Shown here in pieces: positions 1-6,436 of a DNA stretch of 6,436 nucleotides. This DNA comes from Aquisalimonas sp. (GTDB lineage: Bacteria > Pseudomonadota > Gammaproteobacteria > Nitrococcales > Aquisalimonadaceae): contig SLMR01000021.1 in the NCBI GenBank assembly GCA_007133445.1, positions 1-6,436 of the forward strand. The letters run 5' to 3'. The notes beneath the pieces are model-generated. The model was not told the DNA's origin and searched no databases. It saw only the letters and a program-made list of their open reading frames with translations. The first letter of the stretch is position 1. Each line of letters starts with the position of its first letter. The translations under genes and the position numbers were made by a program.

Positions 1-341
1 GCCCGTGCCGCCACAGGAATGGGCACGGGCAGCCCCTGGTCGCGCAGGGTTGCCAGCAGGCGCCATTCCCGGAACGGGCGGGTGCGCTCACGGCCGGTCC
101 AGACGTAGACATCCGGTGACAAACGCGCGACGATCCCTCCGCGCCAGTAGTGGCGCAGCACGAAGGTGGTGCCGTCCAGGTGGAAGAACCACGCGCTGCT
201 GCGCCCGGTGCCGGTGCCGCTGATCAGCTCCCGCTGCGCCAGGGCGTCCGGGTCGAAGAGCCACTCCGGCAGAGGGTCCACGCACCGAGGGTCGTGGATG
301 ATATGGTCCGAGCCATGCTGTTGCACAACCTGATGGTTCAT
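1..341 (-). CDS. kdkA: 3-deoxy-D-manno-octulosonic acid (Kdo) kinase, N-terminal part, cut by window edge
   Basis: Predicted to phosphorylate O-4 of the Kdo residue on lipid A with ATP, on the cytoplasmic side during LPS inner-core assembly. Reading leftward from the ATG at 341-339, 113 codons are open to the edge with no stop. The translation contains TGRSSAWFF (glycine-containing nucleotide-loop region), FVLRHYWRGG, then RPFREWRLLATLRDQGLPVP followed by IPVAAR. The same blocks occur in this order in Haemophilus influenzae KdkA as I recall it (GRGTTYF, ALRHYYRGG, GLPVPKPIAAR). The catalytic HxDLNxHN-type motif would lie beyond the window. The start MNHQVVQQHG sits where the family usually starts and no other early Met is available. 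The Shine-Dalgarno signal is weak. The start overlaps the first codons of the divergent heptosyltransferase gene. Family call is firm; activity is inferred. Confidence 0.85.
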   Translation of the reverse strand, partial: MNHQVVQQHGSDHIIHDPRCVDPLPEWLFDPDALAQRELISGTGTGRSSAWFFHLDGTTFVLRHYWRGGIVARLSPDVYVWTGRERTRPFREWRLLATLRDQGLPVPIPVAAR

Positions 342-1442
342 ACCCCGTCGGCTTCCCTTGCTGAACCACCGCAGCGGCTGTGCCTGTTCCGCCTGTCCGC
401 CATTGGCGACTGCTGCCACCTGGTGCCGGTGATTCGGACCCTCCAGGCCGCCTGGCCGCAGACTCGGCTGACCTGGATCATCGGCCGCACCGAAGCGGCC
501 CTGCTTGGTGATCTCGACGGCGTGGAGTGTATCACCTTCGACAAGCGTGCCGGCCGCCGTGCCCTGCGGCAGCAGCTCGGCGACCGCAGGTTCGACGCCC
601 TGCTGCTCATGCAGGTGGCGTTGCGTGCCGGCTGGGCCTCCACCGCCGTGCGCGCGCCGTTGCGGGTGGGGTTCGACCGCGGCCGCAGCAAGGATCTGCA
701 TGGCCTGTTCGTCAATCGTCGTATTGCTTCCCACCCGCGCGCCCATGTCATGGAGGGGTTCTTCGACTTCATCCAGGCCCTGGGTGTGACCGAGCGCCAG
801 CTGCGCTGGGATGTGCCGGTGCCCGAACCCGCCCGGGCCCGTGCCGAGGAGCTGATCCCCGACGACCAGCCCACGCTCCTGATCAGCCCCTGCAGCAGCC
901 AGCGCTTCAACAACTTCCGCAATTGGCCGGCGGATCGCTATGCCGAGGTGGCGACCGAGGCCGTTCGCCGCCACGGTATGCGCGTCATCCTCACCGGCGG
1001 CCCCAGTGACGAGGAACGCGCCTATGCCGAGGCCATCAGCGCGCGCGCCGGCGTGCCGGTCACCGACTGCATCGGCAGGACGTCCCTGAAGGAGCTGTTC
1101 GCGCTGCTGGAGCGGGCGACCGTGCTCGTCTCGCCGGATTCCGGGCCCGCCCACATGGCCGTGGCCGCCGGCACGCCGGTGATCGGCCTCTACGCCACCT
1201 CGAACCCGGATCGCACGGGCCCGTATCTCGGCCGCGAATGGGTGGTGAATCGCTATCCCGAGGCCGTGCGCGCCGAGCTCGGCCGGGACGTCAGCGACAT
1301 CGCGTGGGGGCGGCGGGTCCGCAAGGCGGATGCCATGGCCCTGATCCAGGTCAATGACGTGCTGGAGCGTCTGGCTATACTGCTGCAGACACCAGCCGAG
1401 GCGCGGCTGCTGCCCCCCGAGCGGAGTCGGCCGGAGGCCTGA
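333..1442 (+). CDS. Glycosyltransferase family 9, probable ADP-heptose:LPS heptosyltransferase
   Basis: Predicted to transfer L-glycero-D-manno-heptose from ADP-heptose to the Kdo-lipid A inner core at the cytoplasmic face. The 369-residue product has the GT9 two-domain layout. The N-terminal domain opens with RLCLFRLSAIGD (residues 15-26, whose Asp is the conserved acid). The C-terminal domain has LISPCSSQRFNNFRNW (183-198), VILTGG (218-223), SPDSGPAHMA (267-276, nucleotide-sugar binding) and PVIGLYATSNPDRTGPY (282-298). It is followed directly by waaA. I cannot decide between a WaaC role (first heptose) and a WaaF role, and the SPCSS..NFRNW form looks like a side clade, so no symbol is given. 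Start choice is uncertain. ATG 333 leaves 14 residues before the core strand, as is usual, but has no clear Shine-Dalgarno; ATG 303 has GAGGGT about 10 bases upstream and ATG 315 is also possible. Confidence 0.85.
   Translation: MVHTPSASLAEPPQRLCLFRLSAIGDCCHLVPVIRTLQAAWPQTRLTWIIGRTEAALLGDLDGVECITFDKRAGRRALRQQLGDRRFDALLLMQVALRAGWASTAVRAPLRVGFDRGRSKDLHGLFVNRRIASHPRAHVMEGFFDFIQALGVTERQLRWDVPVPEPARARAEELIPDDQPTLLISPCSSQRFNNFRNWPADRYAEVATEAVRRHGMRVILTGGPSDEERAYAEAISARAGVPVTDCIGRTSLKELFALLERATVLVSPDSGPAHMAVAAGTPVIGLYATSNPDRTGPYLGREWVVNRYPEAVRAELGRDVSDIAWGRRVRKADAMALIQVNDVLERLAILLQTPAEARLLPPERSRPEA
1433..1437 (+). promoter_or_regulatory. Ribosome binding site of waaA, inside the upstream gene
   Basis: GGAGG lies 4 bases before the waaA ATG and within the last codons of the heptosyltransferase gene. 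The spacing is slightly short. Together with the TGATG overlap it suggests translational coupling and supports the ATG at 1442. Confidence 0.55.
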
Positions 1443-2710
1443 TGCGACACCTCTACAGCCTGCTGTGGTACCTGATCACGCCAGGCCTGCTGATCTACCT
1501 GGCCTGGCGCGCCCGGCGCGAGCCACCCTACCGGGAGCAATGGGCCCGCCGGTTCGGATTGAGCGCTCCGCAGGTGCCCGCCGGTGCCATCTGGGTCCAT
1601 GCAGCGTCCATGGGTGAGGTGCAGGCCTCGGCGGTGTTCATCCGCGAACTCCGCGCCGCCCACCCGGACATCCCGCTGGTGGTCAGTACCATGACGCCCA
1701 CTGGTGCTGCCCACGTGCAGCGCCTCTTCGGTGAAGGTGTCCATCACGCCTACCTGCCCTTCGACTACCCCCATGCCGTGGCGCTGTTTCTGCGCGCCCT
1801 GCGCCCGCGGCTGGCGGTGATCGTGGAAATGGAGCTGTGGCCGAACCTGTTCGCCGCTATCCGCCGGCGCGGTATCCCGCTGCTGCTGGTGAACGCCCGG
1901 CTCTCCGCCGCCAGCGCCCGCGGCTACAGCCGTCTGCGCGGGCTCATGGCCGGCGTGCTCCAGTGCCCGGATGCCATTGCCGCCCAGAGTCGTGAGCACG
2001 CCCGCCGGCTGATCCACCTGGGCGCGCCGGCGGAGCGCATGTCGGTCACCGGCAGCCTCAAGTTCGATGTCACCGTGCCCGCCAGCGCCCGGGAGCAGGG
2101 TGAGGCGCTGCGGGCGACCCTGGGCGCCGAGCGGCCGGTCTGGATCGCCGCCAGCACCCGTGACGGCGAGGAGGAACGGGTGCTGGACGCCTTCGACGAG
2201 GTGCGCCGGACCATTCCGGATGCGCTGCTGCTGCTGGTGCCGCGTCACCCGGACCGCTTCGCCCGCGTCGGCAGCCTGTGCCGGGAGCGTGACTACGTGG
2301 TCGTGACCCGCAGCAGCGGTGATGTCTGCACACCCGACACCCACGTCCTCCTCGGTGACAGCATGGGGGAGATGCCCGTGTTCTATGCCGCCGCCGATGT
2401 CGCCTTCGTGGGCGGCAGCCTGGTGCCCCTGGGCGGTCAGAACGTGCTGGAGCCGGCGGCGCTGGCCCTGCCCGTGGTGGTCGGCCCGCACACCTACAAT
2501 TTCGAACAGATCGTCCAGCAGCTGGTGGCGCAGGGCGGCGCCTACCAGGTGGCGGACCACCACCACCTGGCGGATGCGGTGATCGAGCTGCTGGAGCGCC
2601 CGGAGCGGCGGGCGGAGATGGGGCGTCGGGCCCACGCCTTGATCGAGGCGAATCGGGGTGCCACCGGGCAGGTGCTGGCCCTCGTGGAACGGTTCCTATC
2701 CCCGGGCTGA
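1442..2710 (+). CDS. waaA: 3-deoxy-D-manno-octulosonic acid transferase (Kdo transferase, GT30)
   Basis: Transfers Kdo from CMP-Kdo to lipid IVA, an essential early step of LPS synthesis, as a membrane-anchored inner-membrane protein. At 422 residues it matches the family (E. coli is 425). A hydrophobic N-terminal anchor (about residues 4-22) is followed by WVHAASMGEV; its Glu59 corresponds to the catalytic base of the HxxSxGE motif. Further family blocks are EMELWPN (129-135), NARLS (151-155), TGSLKFD (203-209), GDSMGEM (305-311), FVGGSLVPLGGQNVLEP (322-338) and GPHTYNF (349-355). The start overlaps the stop of the upstream heptosyltransferase by one base, so the two are surely cotranscribed. 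The nearby kdkA suggests a monofunctional enzyme adding one Kdo, but sequence alone does not separate mono- from bifunctional WaaA. The last 15 bases overlap the converging ubiF-like gene. Confidence 0.96.
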   Translation: MRHLYSLLWYLITPGLLIYLAWRARREPPYREQWARRFGLSAPQVPAGAIWVHAASMGEVQASAVFIRELRAAHPDIPLVVSTMTPTGAAHVQRLFGEGVHHAYLPFDYPHAVALFLRALRPRLAVIVEMELWPNLFAAIRRRGIPLLLVNARLSAASARGYSRLRGLMAGVLQCPDAIAAQSREHARRLIHLGAPAERMSVTGSLKFDVTVPASAREQGEALRATLGAERPVWIAASTRDGEEERVLDAFDEVRRTIPDALLLLVPRHPDRFARVGSLCRERDYVVVTRSSGDVCTPDTHVLLGDSMGEMPVFYAAADVAFVGGSLVPLGGQNVLEPAALALPVVVGPHTYNFEQIVQQLVAQGGAYQVADHHHLADAVIELLERPERRAEMGRRAHALIEANRGATGQVLALVERFLSPG

Positions 2711-3910
2711 CCCGCGACCGTCACTCCACAGCGGCAGCCCCATGGCGTGCCGCATGACCTGGCGCCGACCCACGGGAACCTTGTCCGCCAGCCGCAGCAC
2801 GCCGCTGGCGATTCGCGTCAGCGGGCCGGGTTCACGGGTGAAGAGCCGGTGGAAGCTGTCGGTGGCCACCATCATGGCCAGCGCCCGGGGCCGATGCCGG
2901 TGCTCGTAGTCCGCCAGCACGGCGGCGGTTCCCGGGTCGCGACCCAACTCCCGGGCGTGCAGCAGCGTGTCGACCAGCGTATCCACCCCCTGCAGGCCCA
3001 GGTTCAGGCCCTGGCCCACCAGCGGGTGGATGGCGTGCGCCGCGTCGCCGACCAGGGCGACGCGGCTGGACGTGTAGCTCGTGGCGTGCTGGCGCCGGAT
3101 GGGAAAGCTGGCCCGGCCCAGCACCGCGGTGATGCCACCCAGCTCCTCGGGGAAGGCATCGACGATCTCGCCGGCCAGGGTTTCGTCATCCAGAGACTCC
3201 AGCAGCGACACCGTGTCCGGGTCGTTGTACCAGACCAGCGAGGCCCGATGGCCGGGCAGCGGCAGAAAGGCCTGGGGGCCGCTGGGGGTGAAGCGCTGCC
3301 AGGTCACATCCTGCTGCGGCAGCTCCGTGGCCACGTTCACGACCAGTGCCCGCAGTCCGTAGTCGGTGCTGGTGTAATCGATCTCGGCGAGCTGGCGGAC
3401 GGTGGAGCGGGCGCCGTCGGCGCCGATCACCAGCTCTGCCTCCACCTCGGTGCCGTTGTTCAGCGTCAGGCTGGCACCCGTGGCGTCAGCCGTCAGCGCT
3501 GCTGGCCGCGCCGGTGCGATCCAGCGCACGTTCGGAATCCCGGCCAGCGCCTCGTGCAGCCCGGCAAGAATCACCTGGTTCTCCACGAACCAGCCGAACC
3601 AGTCGTGACCTATCTCGCGCGCATCGAAGCGTGTCTCCGCACCGCTCATGTCCCGTGCACGCACGCCACGGAAGGGACAGACACGGCGACGCGTCATGCC
3701 GTCCCAGGCGCCGGCACGCTGGAACAGCTCGGAGGAGGCGAGATTGACGGAGGAGACGCGCAGATCCGGGGTCGCGTCAGCCGGATCGGTGGTTGTCGGC
3801 GGGTGTTCTTCCACCACGGCCACGTCCACGCCGGCCCGACCGAGCAGACAGGCCAGCGACGCGCCGACCATGCCGCCGCCAACCACGATGACTTCCGTCG
3901 ACTCCGTCAT
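2696..3910 (-). CDS. ubiF: UbiH/UbiF-family FAD monooxygenase, probable DMQ hydroxylase of ubiquinone synthesis
   Basis: Predicted flavin hydroxylase acting on a prenylated benzoquinol; the best match is UbiF, which hydroxylates C6 of 2-octaprenyl-3-methyl-6-methoxy-1,4-benzoquinol. The 404-residue product has an N-terminal FAD Rossmann motif GGGMVG (11-16) ending at Glu34, the family pattern PDLRVSSVN (48-56), FVENQVI (108-114), the DG motif IGADGARS (162-169) and GDAAHAIHPLVGQGLNLG (288-305). Two stretches resemble E. coli UbiF more than UbiH or UbiI: TWQRFTPSGPQAFLPLPG (203-220), and the C-terminal RRQVMRHAMGL. E. coli UbiF has 391 residues. Start ATG 3910 places the Rossmann strand seven residues in; upstream in-frame extension would run into the methyltransferase gene, and the Shine-Dalgarno is weak. 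It lies 20 bases after that gene and is likely cotranscribed. The TAG stop at 2698-2696 lies inside waaA. UbiI- or UbiH-type regiospecificity cannot be excluded. Confidence 0.8.
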   Translation of the reverse strand: MTESTEVIVVGGGMVGASLACLLGRAGVDVAVVEEHPPTTTDPADATPDLRVSSVNLASSELFQRAGAWDGMTRRRVCPFRGVRARDMSGAETRFDAREIGHDWFGWFVENQVILAGLHEALAGIPNVRWIAPARPAALTADATGASLTLNNGTEVEAELVIGADGARSTVRQLAEIDYTSTDYGLRALVVNVATELPQQDVTWQRFTPSGPQAFLPLPGHRASLVWYNDPDTVSLLESLDDETLAGEIVDAFPEELGGITAVLGRASFPIRRQHATSYTSSRVALVGDAAHAIHPLVGQGLNLGLQGVDTLVDTLLHARELGRDPGTAAVLADYEHRHRPRALAMMVATDSFHRLFTREPGPLTRIASGVLRLADKVPVGRRQVMRHAMGLPLWSDGRGSARG

Positions 3911-3930
3911 GGGCGCCCGCCCGGCAGACC

Positions 3931-4593
3931 TCAGAAATCGAAACGCCGGGTCCGCGGTGCGTTCACCAGCGGCGGCAGCCAGGTGTCGAACAGGCTCTCG
4001 GTCGACCACTGATTCTGGCCTACCCGGGTGATTAGCAGTCCTTCCATGATCGGCGCCTCGCCGACGATGAGAATGAGCCGGCCGCCCACGGTCAGGGATT
4101 CGTGGAAGCCCTTGTGCAGCTCGGGCAGGCCGCCGGTGACAACGATGGCGTCGTAGCGGTTGCCGTCATCCCAGCCCCGGGCAGCGTCGCCCTGCTCAAG
4201 GGTGACATTGCGGATGGCCTCGCGCTCCAGGCGCTCGGCCGCCTGATCCAGGAAATCCTGATGGATGTCCACGCTGACCACCTGCCGGCACAGCCGCGCC
4301 AGGCAGGCCGTGAAATAACCACTGCCAGTGCCGATCTCAAGCACCTGCTCCGCCTGCGTCAGCTCCGCCGCCTGGGCCATCCGGCCCTCCTGCTTGGGCG
4401 ACAGCATGACCTCGTCGTGGCCGATGGGGAGGTTCATGTCCGAGAAGGCAAGATTGCGCAGGTGGTCGGGCACGAAGCGCTCCCGCGGGGTGTGCTGCAG
4501 CACGTCCAGCACCCGGGGATCCAGCACCTCCCATGGGCGGATCTGCTGCTCCACCATGTTGAAACGGGCCTGTTCCAGGTTCATTTCGCTCAT
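3931..4593 (-). CDS. PCMT-family SAM-dependent methyltransferase, annotated-type protein-L-isoaspartate O-methyltransferase with altered active site
   Basis: This 220-residue protein belongs to the protein-L-isoaspartate O-methyltransferase family (COG2518-like). Canonical members methylate isoaspartyl residues in damaged proteins using S-adenosylmethionine in the cytosol. Shared features are RERFVPDHLRNLAF (37-50), LPIGH (55-59), SAM motif I VLEIGTGSGYFTACLARL (84-101), acidic SVDI (107-110), QGDAARGW (134-141), YDAIVVTGG (147-155) and GGRLILIVG (170-178). The canonical T-I-S-x-P signature is here V-M-L-S-P-K (62-67), so Leu64 replaces the conserved Ser in an ungapped alignment. The protein opens with MNLEQARFNMVEQQIRPW, typical of a distinct proteobacterial subgroup. 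The substrate may therefore not be isoaspartate, and the symbol pcm is withheld. A strong Shine-Dalgarno five bases upstream fixes the start. It heads a two-gene unit with the ubiF-like gene. Confidence 0.85.
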   Translation of the reverse strand: MSEMNLEQARFNMVEQQIRPWEVLDPRVLDVLQHTPRERFVPDHLRNLAFSDMNLPIGHDEVMLSPKQEGRMAQAAELTQAEQVLEIGTGSGYFTACLARLCRQVVSVDIHQDFLDQAAERLEREAIRNVTLEQGDAARGWDDGNRYDAIVVTGGLPELHKGFHESLTVGGRLILIVGEAPIMEGLLITRVGQNQWSTESLFDTWLPPLVNAPRTRRFDF

Positions 4594-4755: not shown

Positions 4756-5481
4756 ATGGCCGACGCCGGAACGCTTGCCGACTTTGCCGGCCGCCTTGAA
4801 GCCTTTCTGGATCTGGGCGGTCCGGTGGTGGTGCTGCTGCTGATGATGTCGGTGGTGGCCATTGCCATCGCCCTGCTCAAGCTCTGGCAGTTCCACAGCC
4901 TGCGCCTGGGCCGCCAGGGCTTTGTTCCCGGCTGCCTGGACGGGCTGCGCAAGGGCGAGGACGAGGCCGTTCTGCAGCGGCTGGCGGCAGAGCGCAACCC
5001 CATCGCGCGTGTCATGGAAGTGGCGGTGAGTGGGCGGCGGAATCCGGACATGCCGCTGGAGCTGGTGCGCGAGGAAGTGGCCCGGGTGGCCACCGGGTAC
5101 CTGGACTCCCTGCGTGCCTACCTGCGCGGTCTGGAAGTGATCGGCTCTCTGGCGCCCCTGCTGGGGCTGCTGGGTACCGTGCTGGGCATGATCGACGCGT
5201 TCCGCCAGCTGGAGGGCGCCGGCAGTCAGGTGGATCCCGCCCTGCTCTCCGGCGGCATCTGGGAAGCGCTGCTGACCACCGCGGTGGGCCTGGCCGTGGC
5301 GATCCCCGCCGTGATCCTGCTCAACTGGCTGGAAGGGCGGGTGGAGCGCTTCCGTCATCGCATGGAAGACGCCGTGACCCGCGTGTTCACGCAGACGGCC
5401 GTTGCTGCCGCTCCCGGGAAGGACGGCGAGGACGGCGAAATTACGCGGCTGGAGTCCCGCCGCAGCGCCGATGCAACTTGA
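4756..5481 (+). CDS. exbB: ExbB, MotA/TolQ/ExbB proton channel family
   Basis: Inner-membrane channel subunit that, with ExbD, uses the proton motive force to energise TonB for uptake through outer-membrane receptors. The 241 residues are close to E. coli ExbB (244). Three membrane helices are visible: about 22-46 (PVVVLLLMMSVVAIAIALL), 126-148 (LEVIGSLAPLLGLLGTVLG and on) and 168-192 (from IWEALLTTAVGL). Polar channel residues are conserved: Thr141 in LGTVLG, and Glu170 with Thr175 in GIWEALLTTAVGL, which correspond to T148, E176 and T181 of E. coli ExbB. The cytoplasmic stretch lies between helices one and two. A charged C-terminal tail (KDGEDGEITRLESRRS) follows helix three. The three downstream genes (ExbD, ExbD, TonB) favour ExbB over TolQ. 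The stop overlaps exbD1 by 11 bases. A Fur-like palindrome upstream suggests iron control. Confidence 0.92.
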   Translation: MADAGTLADFAGRLEAFLDLGGPVVVLLLMMSVVAIAIALLKLWQFHSLRLGRQGFVPGCLDGLRKGEDEAVLQRLAAERNPIARVMEVAVSGRRNPDMPLELVREEVARVATGYLDSLRAYLRGLEVIGSLAPLLGLLGTVLGMIDAFRQLEGAGSQVDPALLSGGIWEALLTTAVGLAVAIPAVILLNWLEGRVERFRHRMEDAVTRVFTQTAVAAAPGKDGEDGEITRLESRRSADAT

Positions 5482-5869
5482 GAGTACCGCGCCCCGTCGC
5501 CGCCGCCTGGTCTCGCTGACGCCGCTGATCGACGTGGTGTTCATCCTGCTGGTGTTCTTCATGCTGGCCTCCACGTTCACGGACTGGCGCTCCCTGCAGC
5601 TGGCCGTGCCCGGCGAGGCCACCACCCCCGACGCCGATGCGCCCGCCCCGCTGGTGGTGAGCGTTGGCATGGACAGCCTGCGGCTCGACGGTGAGGAGCT
5701 GAGTCTGGACGCGCTGGCGGCCGGTGTCGGCGAGGCCGTGGCGGAGGAGCCCGAGCGCAGCGTCATCGTGCGCCCCGGGGACGACGTGCCCCTGCAGCGG
5801 CTGGTGACCGTCATGGAACGTCTCCACGAAGCCGGCGGCAGCCGCGTCAGTCTGCAGCGGGAGGAGTGA
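5471..5869 (+). CDS. exbD1: ExbD, first paralogue, with the canonical proton-carrying Asp
   Basis: Single-span inner-membrane partner of ExbB whose membrane Asp takes part in proton transfer and whose periplasmic domain contacts TonB. The 132 residues have a short basic cytoplasmic start (MQLESTAPRRRRLVS), one helix of about 18-36 in LTPLIDVVFILLVFFMLAST and a periplasmic domain ending in VMERLHEAGGSRVSLQ. Asp21 in PLIDVVF corresponds to D25 of E. coli ExbD. The ATG at 5471 is chosen because it puts the helix at the usual distance from the N terminus; longer readings in this frame would be out-of-frame exbB sequence. It overlaps the end of exbB by 11 bases and has no good Shine-Dalgarno of its own (GGAG is 17 bases away), so translation is probably coupled to exbB. 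Confidence 0.9.
   Translation: MQLESTAPRRRRLVSLTPLIDVVFILLVFFMLASTFTDWRSLQLAVPGEATTPDADAPAPLVVSVGMDSLRLDGEELSLDALAAGVGEAVAEEPERSVIVRPGDDVPLQRLVTVMERLHEAGGSRVSLQREE
5553..5582 (+). repeat. Direct repeat copy 1, in the membrane-helix coding part of exbD1
   Basis: This 30-base stretch matches 5951-5980 at 26 of 30 positions, including the shared block TTCTTCATGCTGGC and the shared block CACGTTCACGG. Both copies are in the same reading phase of their genes. It encodes the end of the helix (FFMLASTFT) and reflects homology of the two exbD genes. Confidence 0.7.
5860..5866 (+). promoter_or_regulatory. Ribosome binding site of exbD2, decides its start
   Basis: GGAGGAG lies at the very end of exbD1, and its GGAGG core ends 7 bases before ATG 5872. 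A GTG at 5866 is in frame but overlaps this site, so ATG 5872 is the better start. Confidence 0.8.
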
Positions 5870-5871
5870 CC

Positions 5872-6279
5872 ATGCGCTTTCCGCAGCCCGCGCGGCGGCA
5901 GTTCGGCGAACCCGTCATCCCGCTCATCAACATTGTCTTCCTGCTGCTGATCTTCTTCATGCTGGCGGGCACGTTCACGGCCCCGGAGCCGTTCAGTGTC
6001 GACCCACCCGAGGCGCGCAGCGGCACGCCGGCCGACGACGACGAAGGGGTCGTGCTGCTGGGCCCGGACGGCGCCCTTGCCTTCGAGGGTGAAGAGGTGG
6101 AAGACGGGGAGGCGCTGGAGCGCGCAGTGGCGCGCCGGCTGGAGGAGGAGCCGGAGCTGGCTTTGCGGCTCAAGGCGGACGGCAATGTGGCCTCCCATCG
6201 CCTGCTGGATGTCATGGATCGCCTGCGTGATGCCGGGGCCGAGCGGGTGCTGCTGCTCACGGCGGAGGCCCCCGAGTGA
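5872..6279 (+). CDS. exbD2: ExbD, second paralogue, with Asn in place of the membrane Asp
   Basis: The second ExbD-family subunit has 135 residues: a short cytoplasmic start (MRFPQPARRQFGEP), one helix of about 15-34 in VIPLINIVFLLLIFFMLAGT, and a periplasmic domain ending in LLDVMDRLRDAGAERVLLLT, which aligns with the end of ExbD1. The helix Asp that carries protons in ExbD is Asn20 here (codon AAC, 5929-5931), while the surrounding residues are conserved. In E. coli ExbD the D25N change abolishes function, so this subunit should not relay protons alone. It may pair with ExbD1 or have a structural role. The periplasmic linker is acidic (ADDDEG). The gene starts two bases after exbD1 with a strong Shine-Dalgarno and overlaps tonB by one base. 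Confidence 0.88.
   Translation: MRFPQPARRQFGEPVIPLINIVFLLLIFFMLAGTFTAPEPFSVDPPEARSGTPADDDEGVVLLGPDGALAFEGEEVEDGEALERAVARRLEEEPELALRLKADGNVASHRLLDVMDRLRDAGAERVLLLTAEAPE
5951..5980 (+). repeat. Direct repeat copy 2, in the membrane-helix coding part of exbD2
   Basis: Partner of 5553-5582 (26 of 30 identical, same codon phase, 398 bases apart). It encodes FFMLAGTFT. Confidence 0.7.
6264..6268 (+). promoter_or_regulatory. Possible ribosome binding site of tonB
   Basis: GGAGG lies 10 bases before ATG 6279, inside the end of exbD2. The spacing is long, so coupling through the TGATG overlap probably also contributes. Confidence 0.4.
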
Positions 6280-6436
6280 TGGGGCGCCTGCGCTGGCCGC
6301 ACTGGCTGATCGCGCTGGTCATCGCCGGCGCCCTGCATCTCGCCGTGCTGGGCCTGTACCGCCAGGCCAGCCCGGAGCCGGAGCGCGAGGAGCCCGCCGG
6401 CATCGAGGTGACGCTGACGCCAACCGCCGGCGAAGA
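6279..6436 (+). CDS. tonB: TonB-type energy transducer, N-terminal part, cut by window edge
   Basis: TonB spans the periplasm and passes energy from ExbB/ExbD to outer-membrane receptors. Only about 52 residues are visible. They show a short basic start (MGRLRWPHW), one signal-anchor helix (about 9-27, LIALVIAGALHLAVLGLY), then an acidic, proline-containing stretch (ASPEPEREEPAG) and IEVTLTP, which resembles ISVTMVTP after the E. coli TonB anchor. His20 falls in the helix as in E. coli TonB (H20, the key residue for coupling). The Ser at position 16 of E. coli is Ala here. The start overlaps the exbD2 stop by one base. The receptor-binding C-terminal domain is outside the window, so the name rests on the helix and on gene order. 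Confidence 0.78.
   Translation, partial: MGRLRWPHWLIALVIAGALHLAVLGLYRQASPEPEREEPAGIEVTLTPTAGE

Follow-up and report, generated by a model that had tools for sequence, protein, structure and literature searches.

In the canonical ExbB-ExbD-TonB systems of Escherichia coli and Serratia marcescens, both ExbD chains are the same Asp-bearing protein, and two such chains have been placed in one ExbB pore (PMC12215075). Two ExbD domains hold a single TonB strand between them, one in parallel and one in antiparallel orientation to it (PMC10907165). The ExbD(D25N) and TonB(H20A) mutants are both inactive in E. coli (PMC11658791); for D25N, this is what the earlier note on the present DNA had stated. 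The MotAB and PomAB stators have a 5:2 architecture with two copies of one axle protein, whose two essential Asp residues lie in different surroundings (PMC12215075). One of the two Asp residues in 5:2 motors likely carries the proton, and the rotary models differ (PMC12215075); 10 protons per turn are given for a symmetric motor (PMC9389320). For MotB, the D-to-N substitution D22N is said to imitate the protonated state (PMC9389320).

Pairs of adjacent exbD genes have been described as well. Sphingobium SYK-6 and Xanthomonas each have a cluster of a tonB, an exbB and two exbD genes. In SYK-6, Asp-25 is reportedly conserved in both exbD products, attempts to disrupt exbB1, exbD1 and exbD2 failed, and the remaining gene of the exbD type is tolR (PMC8599685). 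SYK-6 is the one tandem system whose site residues were looked up in the literature for the present comparison. The tandem exbD2 of Xanthomonas is not needed for iron uptake (PMC3551730). In the AglR-AglQ-AglS gliding motor of Myxococcus, one MotA/TolQ-type protein accompanies two MotB/TolR-type proteins; AglQ and AglS both carry the membrane Asp, and whether they form heterodimers was called unknown (PMC9389320).

The locus described here comes from a window of 6,436 nucleotides of Aquisalimonas sp., the whole stretch of DNA that was analyzed. It shares protein families, operon logic, predicted fold, ExbB threonines and an adjoining TonB with the canonical systems, the gene set (single tonB and exbB, double exbD) with Sphingobium and Xanthomonas, and the one-plus-two composition with the Agl motor. 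Unlike the canonical systems and the stators, it has two different ExbD gene products, one of them with Asn at the proton-carrier position. Asp in both tandem copies, the mark of the Sphingobium-type class, is not what the window holds: its pair is D and N, whereas AglQ and AglS, like the two SYK-6 copies, are both Asp proteins. In the excerpts of open-access PMC articles that were searched, neither an Asn-type ExbD nor a heteromeric ExbD motor was found described. The features of the window are as follows.

3-371, minus strand: Kdo/WaaP-type kinase fragment
312-1442, plus strand: glycosyltransferase family 9 gene
1442-2710, plus strand: Kdo transferase gene
2696-4009, minus strand: FAD-binding oxidoreductase gene, divergent from the Ton operon
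3931-4593, minus strand: PCMT-type isoaspartate methyltransferase gene, divergent from the Ton operon and adjoining it
4756..5481, plus strand: exbB (MotA/TolQ/ExbB family), 241 aa (PF01618, 107 bits)
5471..5869, plus strand: exbD1, D-type ExbD, 132 aa, ATG at 5471 and stop at 5867-5869 (PF02472, 90.4 bits)
5531..5533, plus strand: Asp21 codon GAC of ExbD1, membrane proton-carrier position (E. coli D25), from the sequence; D in 70/70 ExbD1 partners
5777..5779, plus strand: Gly103 codon of ExbD1, E. coli D107 position, from the sequence, with the E. coli number by alignment
5792..5794, plus strand: Leu108 codon of ExbD1, homodimer-interface position (E. coli Tyr112), from sequence and alignment; interface role from PMC10771500
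5872..6279, plus strand: exbD2, N-type ExbD, 135 aa (PF02472, 79.5 bits; AlphaFold2; fold matches)
5908..5910, plus strand: Glu13 codon of ExbD2, ExbD2-specific acid at -7 from the Asn, from residue counts across groups
5929..5931, plus strand: Asn20 codon AAC of ExbD2, proton-carrier position, from the sequence
6178..6180, plus strand: Asp103 codon of ExbD2, the kept periplasmic Asp (D in 69/70 ExbD2)
6193..6195, plus strand: Ser108 codon of ExbD2, Tyr112 interface position (small residue in 62/70 ExbD2)
6279..6436, plus strand: tonB-like gene, first 52 codons, running past the window end, from the sequence

The exbB, exbD1, exbD2 and tonB-like genes on the plus strand overlap or almost touch. 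The ATG of exbD1 overlaps the end of exbB, exbD2 starts 2 bases past the exbD1 stop, and the ATG of the tonB-like gene overlaps the exbD2 stop. The kinase fragment, the glycosyltransferase gene and the Kdo transferase gene form an LPS-core cluster at the far side of the window.

Both small proteins are members of the ExbD/TolR family, with scores well above the Pfam PF02472 cut-off of 25.4 bits. The AlphaFold2 models (pLDDT 85.8 for ExbD1 and 86.1 for ExbD2) each show one N-terminal transmembrane helix, predicted at residues 17-39 and 18-34, respectively, and a folded periplasmic domain of the ExbD type. A Foldseek search with the ExbD2 model returned ExbD/TolR periplasmic domains as top matches (8p9r, 8vgc and 8pek), chain 8p9r_A with a TM score of 0.87 normalized by target. 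In the profile search, both proteins scored below the equivalog cut-offs of the two NCBIfam ExbD models (TIGR02803, 152.95; TIGR02804, 123.45) and of the TolR model (TIGR02801, 127.3), ExbD2 reaching 40.6, 23.4 and 45.3 bits, respectively. Among the matches listed, the closest ExbD2 homologue with a source name belonged to Aquisalimonas sp. and was 75% identical over 90% of the query.

The ExbD2 open reading frame begins MRFPQPARRQFGEPVIPLINIVFLLLIFFMLAG, and rereading of the codon at 5929-5931 upheld AAC, hence Asn20, in place of the proton-relay Asp, as the earlier note had it. Asn20 aligns with D25 of E. coli ExbD, the membrane Asp of ExbD and TolR. Asn occupied the site in 120/120 homologues listed, of 644 matches, the 120 being proteins without genomic context. 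Over the 67 rows that make up the ExbD2 group, this column (63 N, 2 S and 2 D) ranked 11th in conservation of 126. The dN/dS ratio of exbD2 was between 0.02 and 0.41 in 10 of 14 comparisons with close relatives, those with finite dS, dS being saturated in the other 4. These ratios indicate that exbD2 is under purifying selection, and the gene shows no signs of decay, in line with the earlier reading. ExbD2 has no Asp in its transmembrane helix, the feature of an ExbD that carries protons autonomously.

We looked for a functional acid elsewhere in the helix, a result that the earlier note had named as fatal to its Asn claim. No D or E was present at positions -5 to +13 around the Asn in any of 70 ExbD2 proteins; thus the helix holds no substitute acid, and a relocated acid within it is ruled out. 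An acid was present at -7 in 57/70 ExbD2 proteins and in 97/120 listed close homologues, and in 0/70 ExbD1, 0/62 single ExbD and 0/20 TolR-like proteins. This position precedes the predicted ExbD2 helix. The membrane Asp itself was found in 70/70 ExbD1 proteins, 62/62 single ExbDs and 20/20 TolR-like proteins. Two members of the ExbD2 group carry Asp at the site, one from a Competibacteraceae genome (L010, 3660-4184) and one from an alphaproteobacterium (L131, 1501-1923), and the site is therefore able to be Asp; whether by reversion or as the ancestral state, these two are natural test cases. Ser stands at the carrier position in the second gene of two other tandem pairs (L050, 3986-4390; L109, 1489-1893).

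Loci were collected by a one-pattern scan of genome contigs, of which 80 of at least 492 loci were kept, and from 229 gammaproteobacterial and 240 alphaproteobacterial genomes. The N-type pair was found in at least 13/229 gammaproteobacterial genomes (G010 included) and at least 30/240 alphaproteobacterial genomes (G001 included), figures that are lower bounds because the class samples comprised the best 30 loci of 189 and of 196 matching genomes, plus five further alphaproteobacterial pairs. Among named records, N- or S-type pairs came from 18 alphaproteobacteria, 12 gammaproteobacteria, one record labeled Nitrospina and one Gemmatimonadota. Over all loci, with duplicates included, the 86 tandem pairs read D,N in 74 cases, D,D in 7, D,S in 2 and N,D in 1; in the other 2, one place fetched twice, the N-type is second to an ExbD cut by the contig end.

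The earlier note had proposed scoring D or N at the site against the presence of an adjoining second exbD. Across the loci read, each of the 78 N-type ExbDs (duplicates included) adjoined another ExbD gene: 74 stood second after a D-type, 2 followed the contig-cut ExbD, 1 lay in the merged frame of L121 and 1 came first in the N-then-D order of L060. The open reading frames of the pairs overlapped or lay at most 85 bases apart in 78/78 spacings, overlap being overstated because the first possible start was used for each frame. The 294-aa open frame of L121 (1048-1911) was not counted as an ExbD1-ExbD2 gene fusion that would prove contact, as a frameshift near the end of ExbD1, from sequencing error or mutation, carries its frame into that of ExbD2. 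In L060 (3932-4775; Gemmatimonadota), the N-type ExbD comes first and the D-type second, with a different motif; a large TPR protein lies upstream, and a gene without a Pfam match and then a rotamase-domain protein follow. It may be a separate case and may belong to a different machine.

A tree was calculated from 228 rows with the Asn column left out; because it was made quickly and from 128 columns, its support values carry less weight. It grouped 64 ExbD1 partners together (support 91) and placed 64 ExbD2 proteins in one group (support 99; 60 N, 2 S and 2 D). The second-position N-types of L041, L125, L127 and L135 fell outside the main ExbD2 group, and the ExbD1 partners of L012, L041, L139 and L140 fell outside the ExbD1 group, some of these rows on long branches. 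By setting four rows apart, the free tree suggested that the second-position Asn had arisen more than once; this reading was dropped, as a single group for all second-position N and S types was not rejected in a 130-row subset (p-AU 0.968). Given the two groups and this test, the pair seems to stem from a single ancient duplication whose copies were passed on as a unit. The tandem class L141-L144, with Asp in both copies, lay outside the D/N groups and presumably represents the known Sphingobium-type class.

The most telling result of the comparison concerns a second acid, the periplasmic Asp equivalent to D107 of E. coli ExbD. It was counted in 70 pairs, which leave out near-identical duplicates, D/D pairs, L060, L125 and L147 (partner cut), L048 (truncated) and L121. 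The residue was Asp in 69/70 ExbD2 and 9/70 ExbD1 proteins, in 62/62 single ExbDs and in 20/20 TolR-like proteins; all the single ExbDs and TolR-like proteins (62/62 and 20/20) carried the membrane and the periplasmic Asp together. In the window, Gly103 of ExbD1 stands against Asp103 of ExbD2, and the next helix begins at residue 108 in both AlphaFold2 models. In a table of 80 pairs from which near-identical ones had been removed beforehand, 59 combined D/N at the membrane site with not-D/D at the periplasmic one. As read from these alignments, each subunit usually lacks one of two otherwise invariant acids. Both subunits, not ExbD2 alone, therefore look specialized, because ExbD1 has usually lost an invariant Asp of its own. 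In the searched excerpts of open-access PMC articles, no role was found described for this Asp.

Exceptions to the reciprocal pattern were 8 D/N pairs and 1 D/S pair with the periplasmic Asp on both subunits, and L135 with it on neither. The N-type of L060 has lost both acids, so complementarity fails there. In the D/D pairs L010, L131, L141 and L075, the first copy lacks the periplasmic Asp; its loss is thus not tied to the Asn alone.

A further regular difference was found at the position of Tyr112, which in ExbD homodimers lies at the center of a hydrophobic interface network (PMC10771500). The residue was large in 68/70 ExbD1 and small in 62/70 ExbD2 proteins, both together in 60/70 pairs, and large in 57/62 single ExbDs. 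Both copies of L141-L144 have a small residue (S/T) there, indicating that a large one is not needed in every ExbD dimer. Leu at the position of E. coli Leu132, where L132Q abolishes D-box binding (PMC10907165), was present in 51/70 ExbD1 and 60/70 ExbD2 proteins. Covariation between ExbD1 and ExbD2 over the 70 pairs stayed within the shuffled range (best 0.309, versus 0.326 for the best of 20 shuffles). Opposite charges at +19 in the two subunits were common (33/70) but uncorrelated (Fisher p 0.29). Just outside the membrane, ExbD1 has DWR at residues 38-40 (window 5582-5590; D in 40, W in 46 and R in 35 of 70), residues that are not among the commonest of ExbD2 proteins, most of which carry an acid at +19 (47/70).

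The partners of the pair were inspected as well. By motif and alignment, the window ExbB keeps two Thr at what we take to be the counterparts of E. coli T148 and T181, together with a Glu at the presumed E176 site. The two pore threonines, named essential as Thr148 and Thr181 (PMC12905483), were kept in all D/N loci where they could be read (72/72 and 73/73, duplicates included). The Glu was present in 39/73 readable D/N loci (duplicates included), with V, L, Q, T or G in the others, and in 40/59 single-ExbD loci. A Pfam profile search of the 52 residues of the window's tonB-like gene gave no TonB match; the gene at the same place was tonB (PF03544) in 5/5 D/N loci scanned. The locus thus has the ExbB pore threonines and the operon TonB of a Ton system, the window showing only the first 52 TonB-like residues. 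A membrane His was counted in 59/75 TonB proteins by a crude script that picked some segments wrongly, a figure to which we give no weight; by the same crude pick, the N-terminal TonB segment seemed to lack it in L018, L019 and L033 (Thalassospira) and L037 (Kordiimonas).

We then counted Ton-type genes in 29 alphaproteobacterial assemblies with an N-type pair. Exactly three PF02472 matches were present in 21 of them and four to six in the other 8. The third gene, fetched in 20 of the 21, was TolR-like in each case, with the membrane Asp. A TolQ/ExbB-type GTVWG motif was found upstream in 20/20 and an LQA-type TolQ N terminus in 9/20. All 20 third genes matched the TolR model and also the ExbD models; the one protein with scores passed the TolR cut-off (137.4 versus 127.3) and failed that of ExbD (138.5 versus 152.95). 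A match to the TonB C-terminal domain (TonB_C) lay beside the pair in 21/21 assemblies, as the sole one in 16, and on the contig stretch of the third gene in 0/21; where one contig held both, the match adjoined the pair. The upstream motif, the TolR scores and the absence of a nearby TonB_C make the third gene most likely tolR.

TonB-dependent receptors (PF00593) were found in 20 of the 21 three-match assemblies and in 28/29 overall. Two assemblies of about 0.8 and 1.0 Mb (G261 and G393) have both exbD genes beside their only TonB_C match, and in a Thalassospira assembly (G001) the pair was the only Ton-type set found. The 4.3-Mb assembly G435 has a D/N pair and TonB and gave no PF00593 match at E 0.001. 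A second Ton motor could fall in a gap, the completeness of the 29 assemblies not being given, but gaps alone are unlikely to have hidden one in 21 of them. If the pair did not work, these cells would be without a Ton motor. Since the pair and one TolR-like gene account for all PF02472 matches in 21/29 assemblies, each with a tonB beside the pair, it is very probable that the pair is a working Ton motor. The near-fixed Asn, the neighboring ExbD in every locus read and the frequent status as the only Ton-type set bear out the earlier suggestion of a specialized partner rather than a pseudogene. That it belongs to a recurrent, little-studied class also holds, with a group spanning two proteobacterial classes and no description of a D/N class in the open-access excerpts searched.

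Our favored reading, which we hold to be likely, is that ExbD1 and ExbD2 are paralogues sharing one job, as a 1:1 heterodimeric axle in an ExbB pentamer that drives the adjoining TonB. ExbD1 would provide the sole protonatable membrane Asp. The Asn of ExbD2, shaped like an Asp that always stays protonated, would lock its helix in an uncharged state, so that the motor would cycle one proton carrier, not two. ExbD2 would in turn provide the periplasmic Asp usually missing from ExbD1, and the periplasmic domains would pack by large/small pairing at the Tyr112 position. A heterodimer would offer a natural place for two different chains, since the TonB strand sits between two ExbD domains. We infer the heterodimer, the 5:1:1 stoichiometry, the single-carrier cycle, the role of the periplasmic Asp and the direction of force, and the energizing of TonB-dependent receptors by the pair, driven by the proton motive force, is putative. 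The reciprocal losses and the large/small pairing agree with an axle that is obligately heterodimeric and has a single protonatable Asp. The inactivity of D25N in E. coli counts against the model, though both ExbD copies are mutated there. Also against it are the chance-level covariation and charge pairing between the subunits and the exceptions to the reciprocal pattern.

The same sequences would also be compatible with separate complexes, in which ExbD1 homodimers are the motor, while a non-conducting complex of ExbD2 homodimers, or of a minor mixed kind, regulates or stores ExbB and TonB. Covariation between the subunits was not detectable, and exbD2 of Xanthomonas, be it an Asn-type or not, is dispensable for iron uptake and needed for another TonB-linked process (PMC3551730). 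We nevertheless consider such a division unlikely. It leaves unexplained why ExbD1 usually lacks a periplasmic Asp that single ExbDs and TolR-like proteins always keep, and why the two subunits differ so regularly at the dimer-interface position; moreover, the two assemblies of about 0.8 and 1.0 Mb mentioned above keep both genes by their only TonB_C.

The other alternatives restore or dismiss the missing acid. The carrier of ExbD2 might have moved two helical turns toward the cytoplasm, to the -7 acid (Glu13), so that both subunits carry protons. The acid is confined to ExbD2 among the groups compared, and seven residues are one heptad, which would place it on roughly the same helix face. It is however missing from 13/70 ExbD2 proteins, whereas the canonical Asp is invariant in the other groups, and it precedes the predicted helix and would lie outside the E. 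coli transmembrane residues 21-42 (PMC12215075), making this reading improbable. Conversion of the Asn to Asp after translation would likewise restore a normal carrier, and the isoaspartate methyltransferase gene adjoining the operon in the window is in its favor. Deamidation is expected to be slow, however, for an Asn that precedes Ile or Val within a membrane helix. In D/N loci of more than 6 kb, a PCMT-like match was present in 0/24 (tblastn, E 1e-5), and deamidation aided by a neighboring PCMT was rejected; conversion as such is very improbable. Finally, AAC is one base from GAC, as expected if exbD2 were a decaying copy or the Asn a sequencing error. The uniform Asn of the listed homologues and the purifying selection over 10 comparisons rule this out as far as the present results reach, and together with the close spacing of all pairs they leave it hardly any credence.

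Returning to the proposed shared axle of ExbD1 and ExbD2, the lopsided pair is probably an old, widespread and working design. Its fullest form would be an obligately asymmetric Ton motor, ExbB5-ExbD1-ExbD2-TonB, with one proton-site helix and one protonated-like helix, a separate periplasmic function for ExbD2, and a status as the sole Ton motor of many bacteria; the chances for and against this whole picture seem to us evenly balanced. The use of two identical carriers in 5:2 proton motors is unsettled. If the reading is true, one carrier beside one locked mimic would directly test whether both carriers are needed, and cryo-EM should distinguish two unlike axle chains more readily than identical ones. 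The D/N motor would then inform both the number of protons per turn and the function of the reported asymmetry of ExbD dimers.
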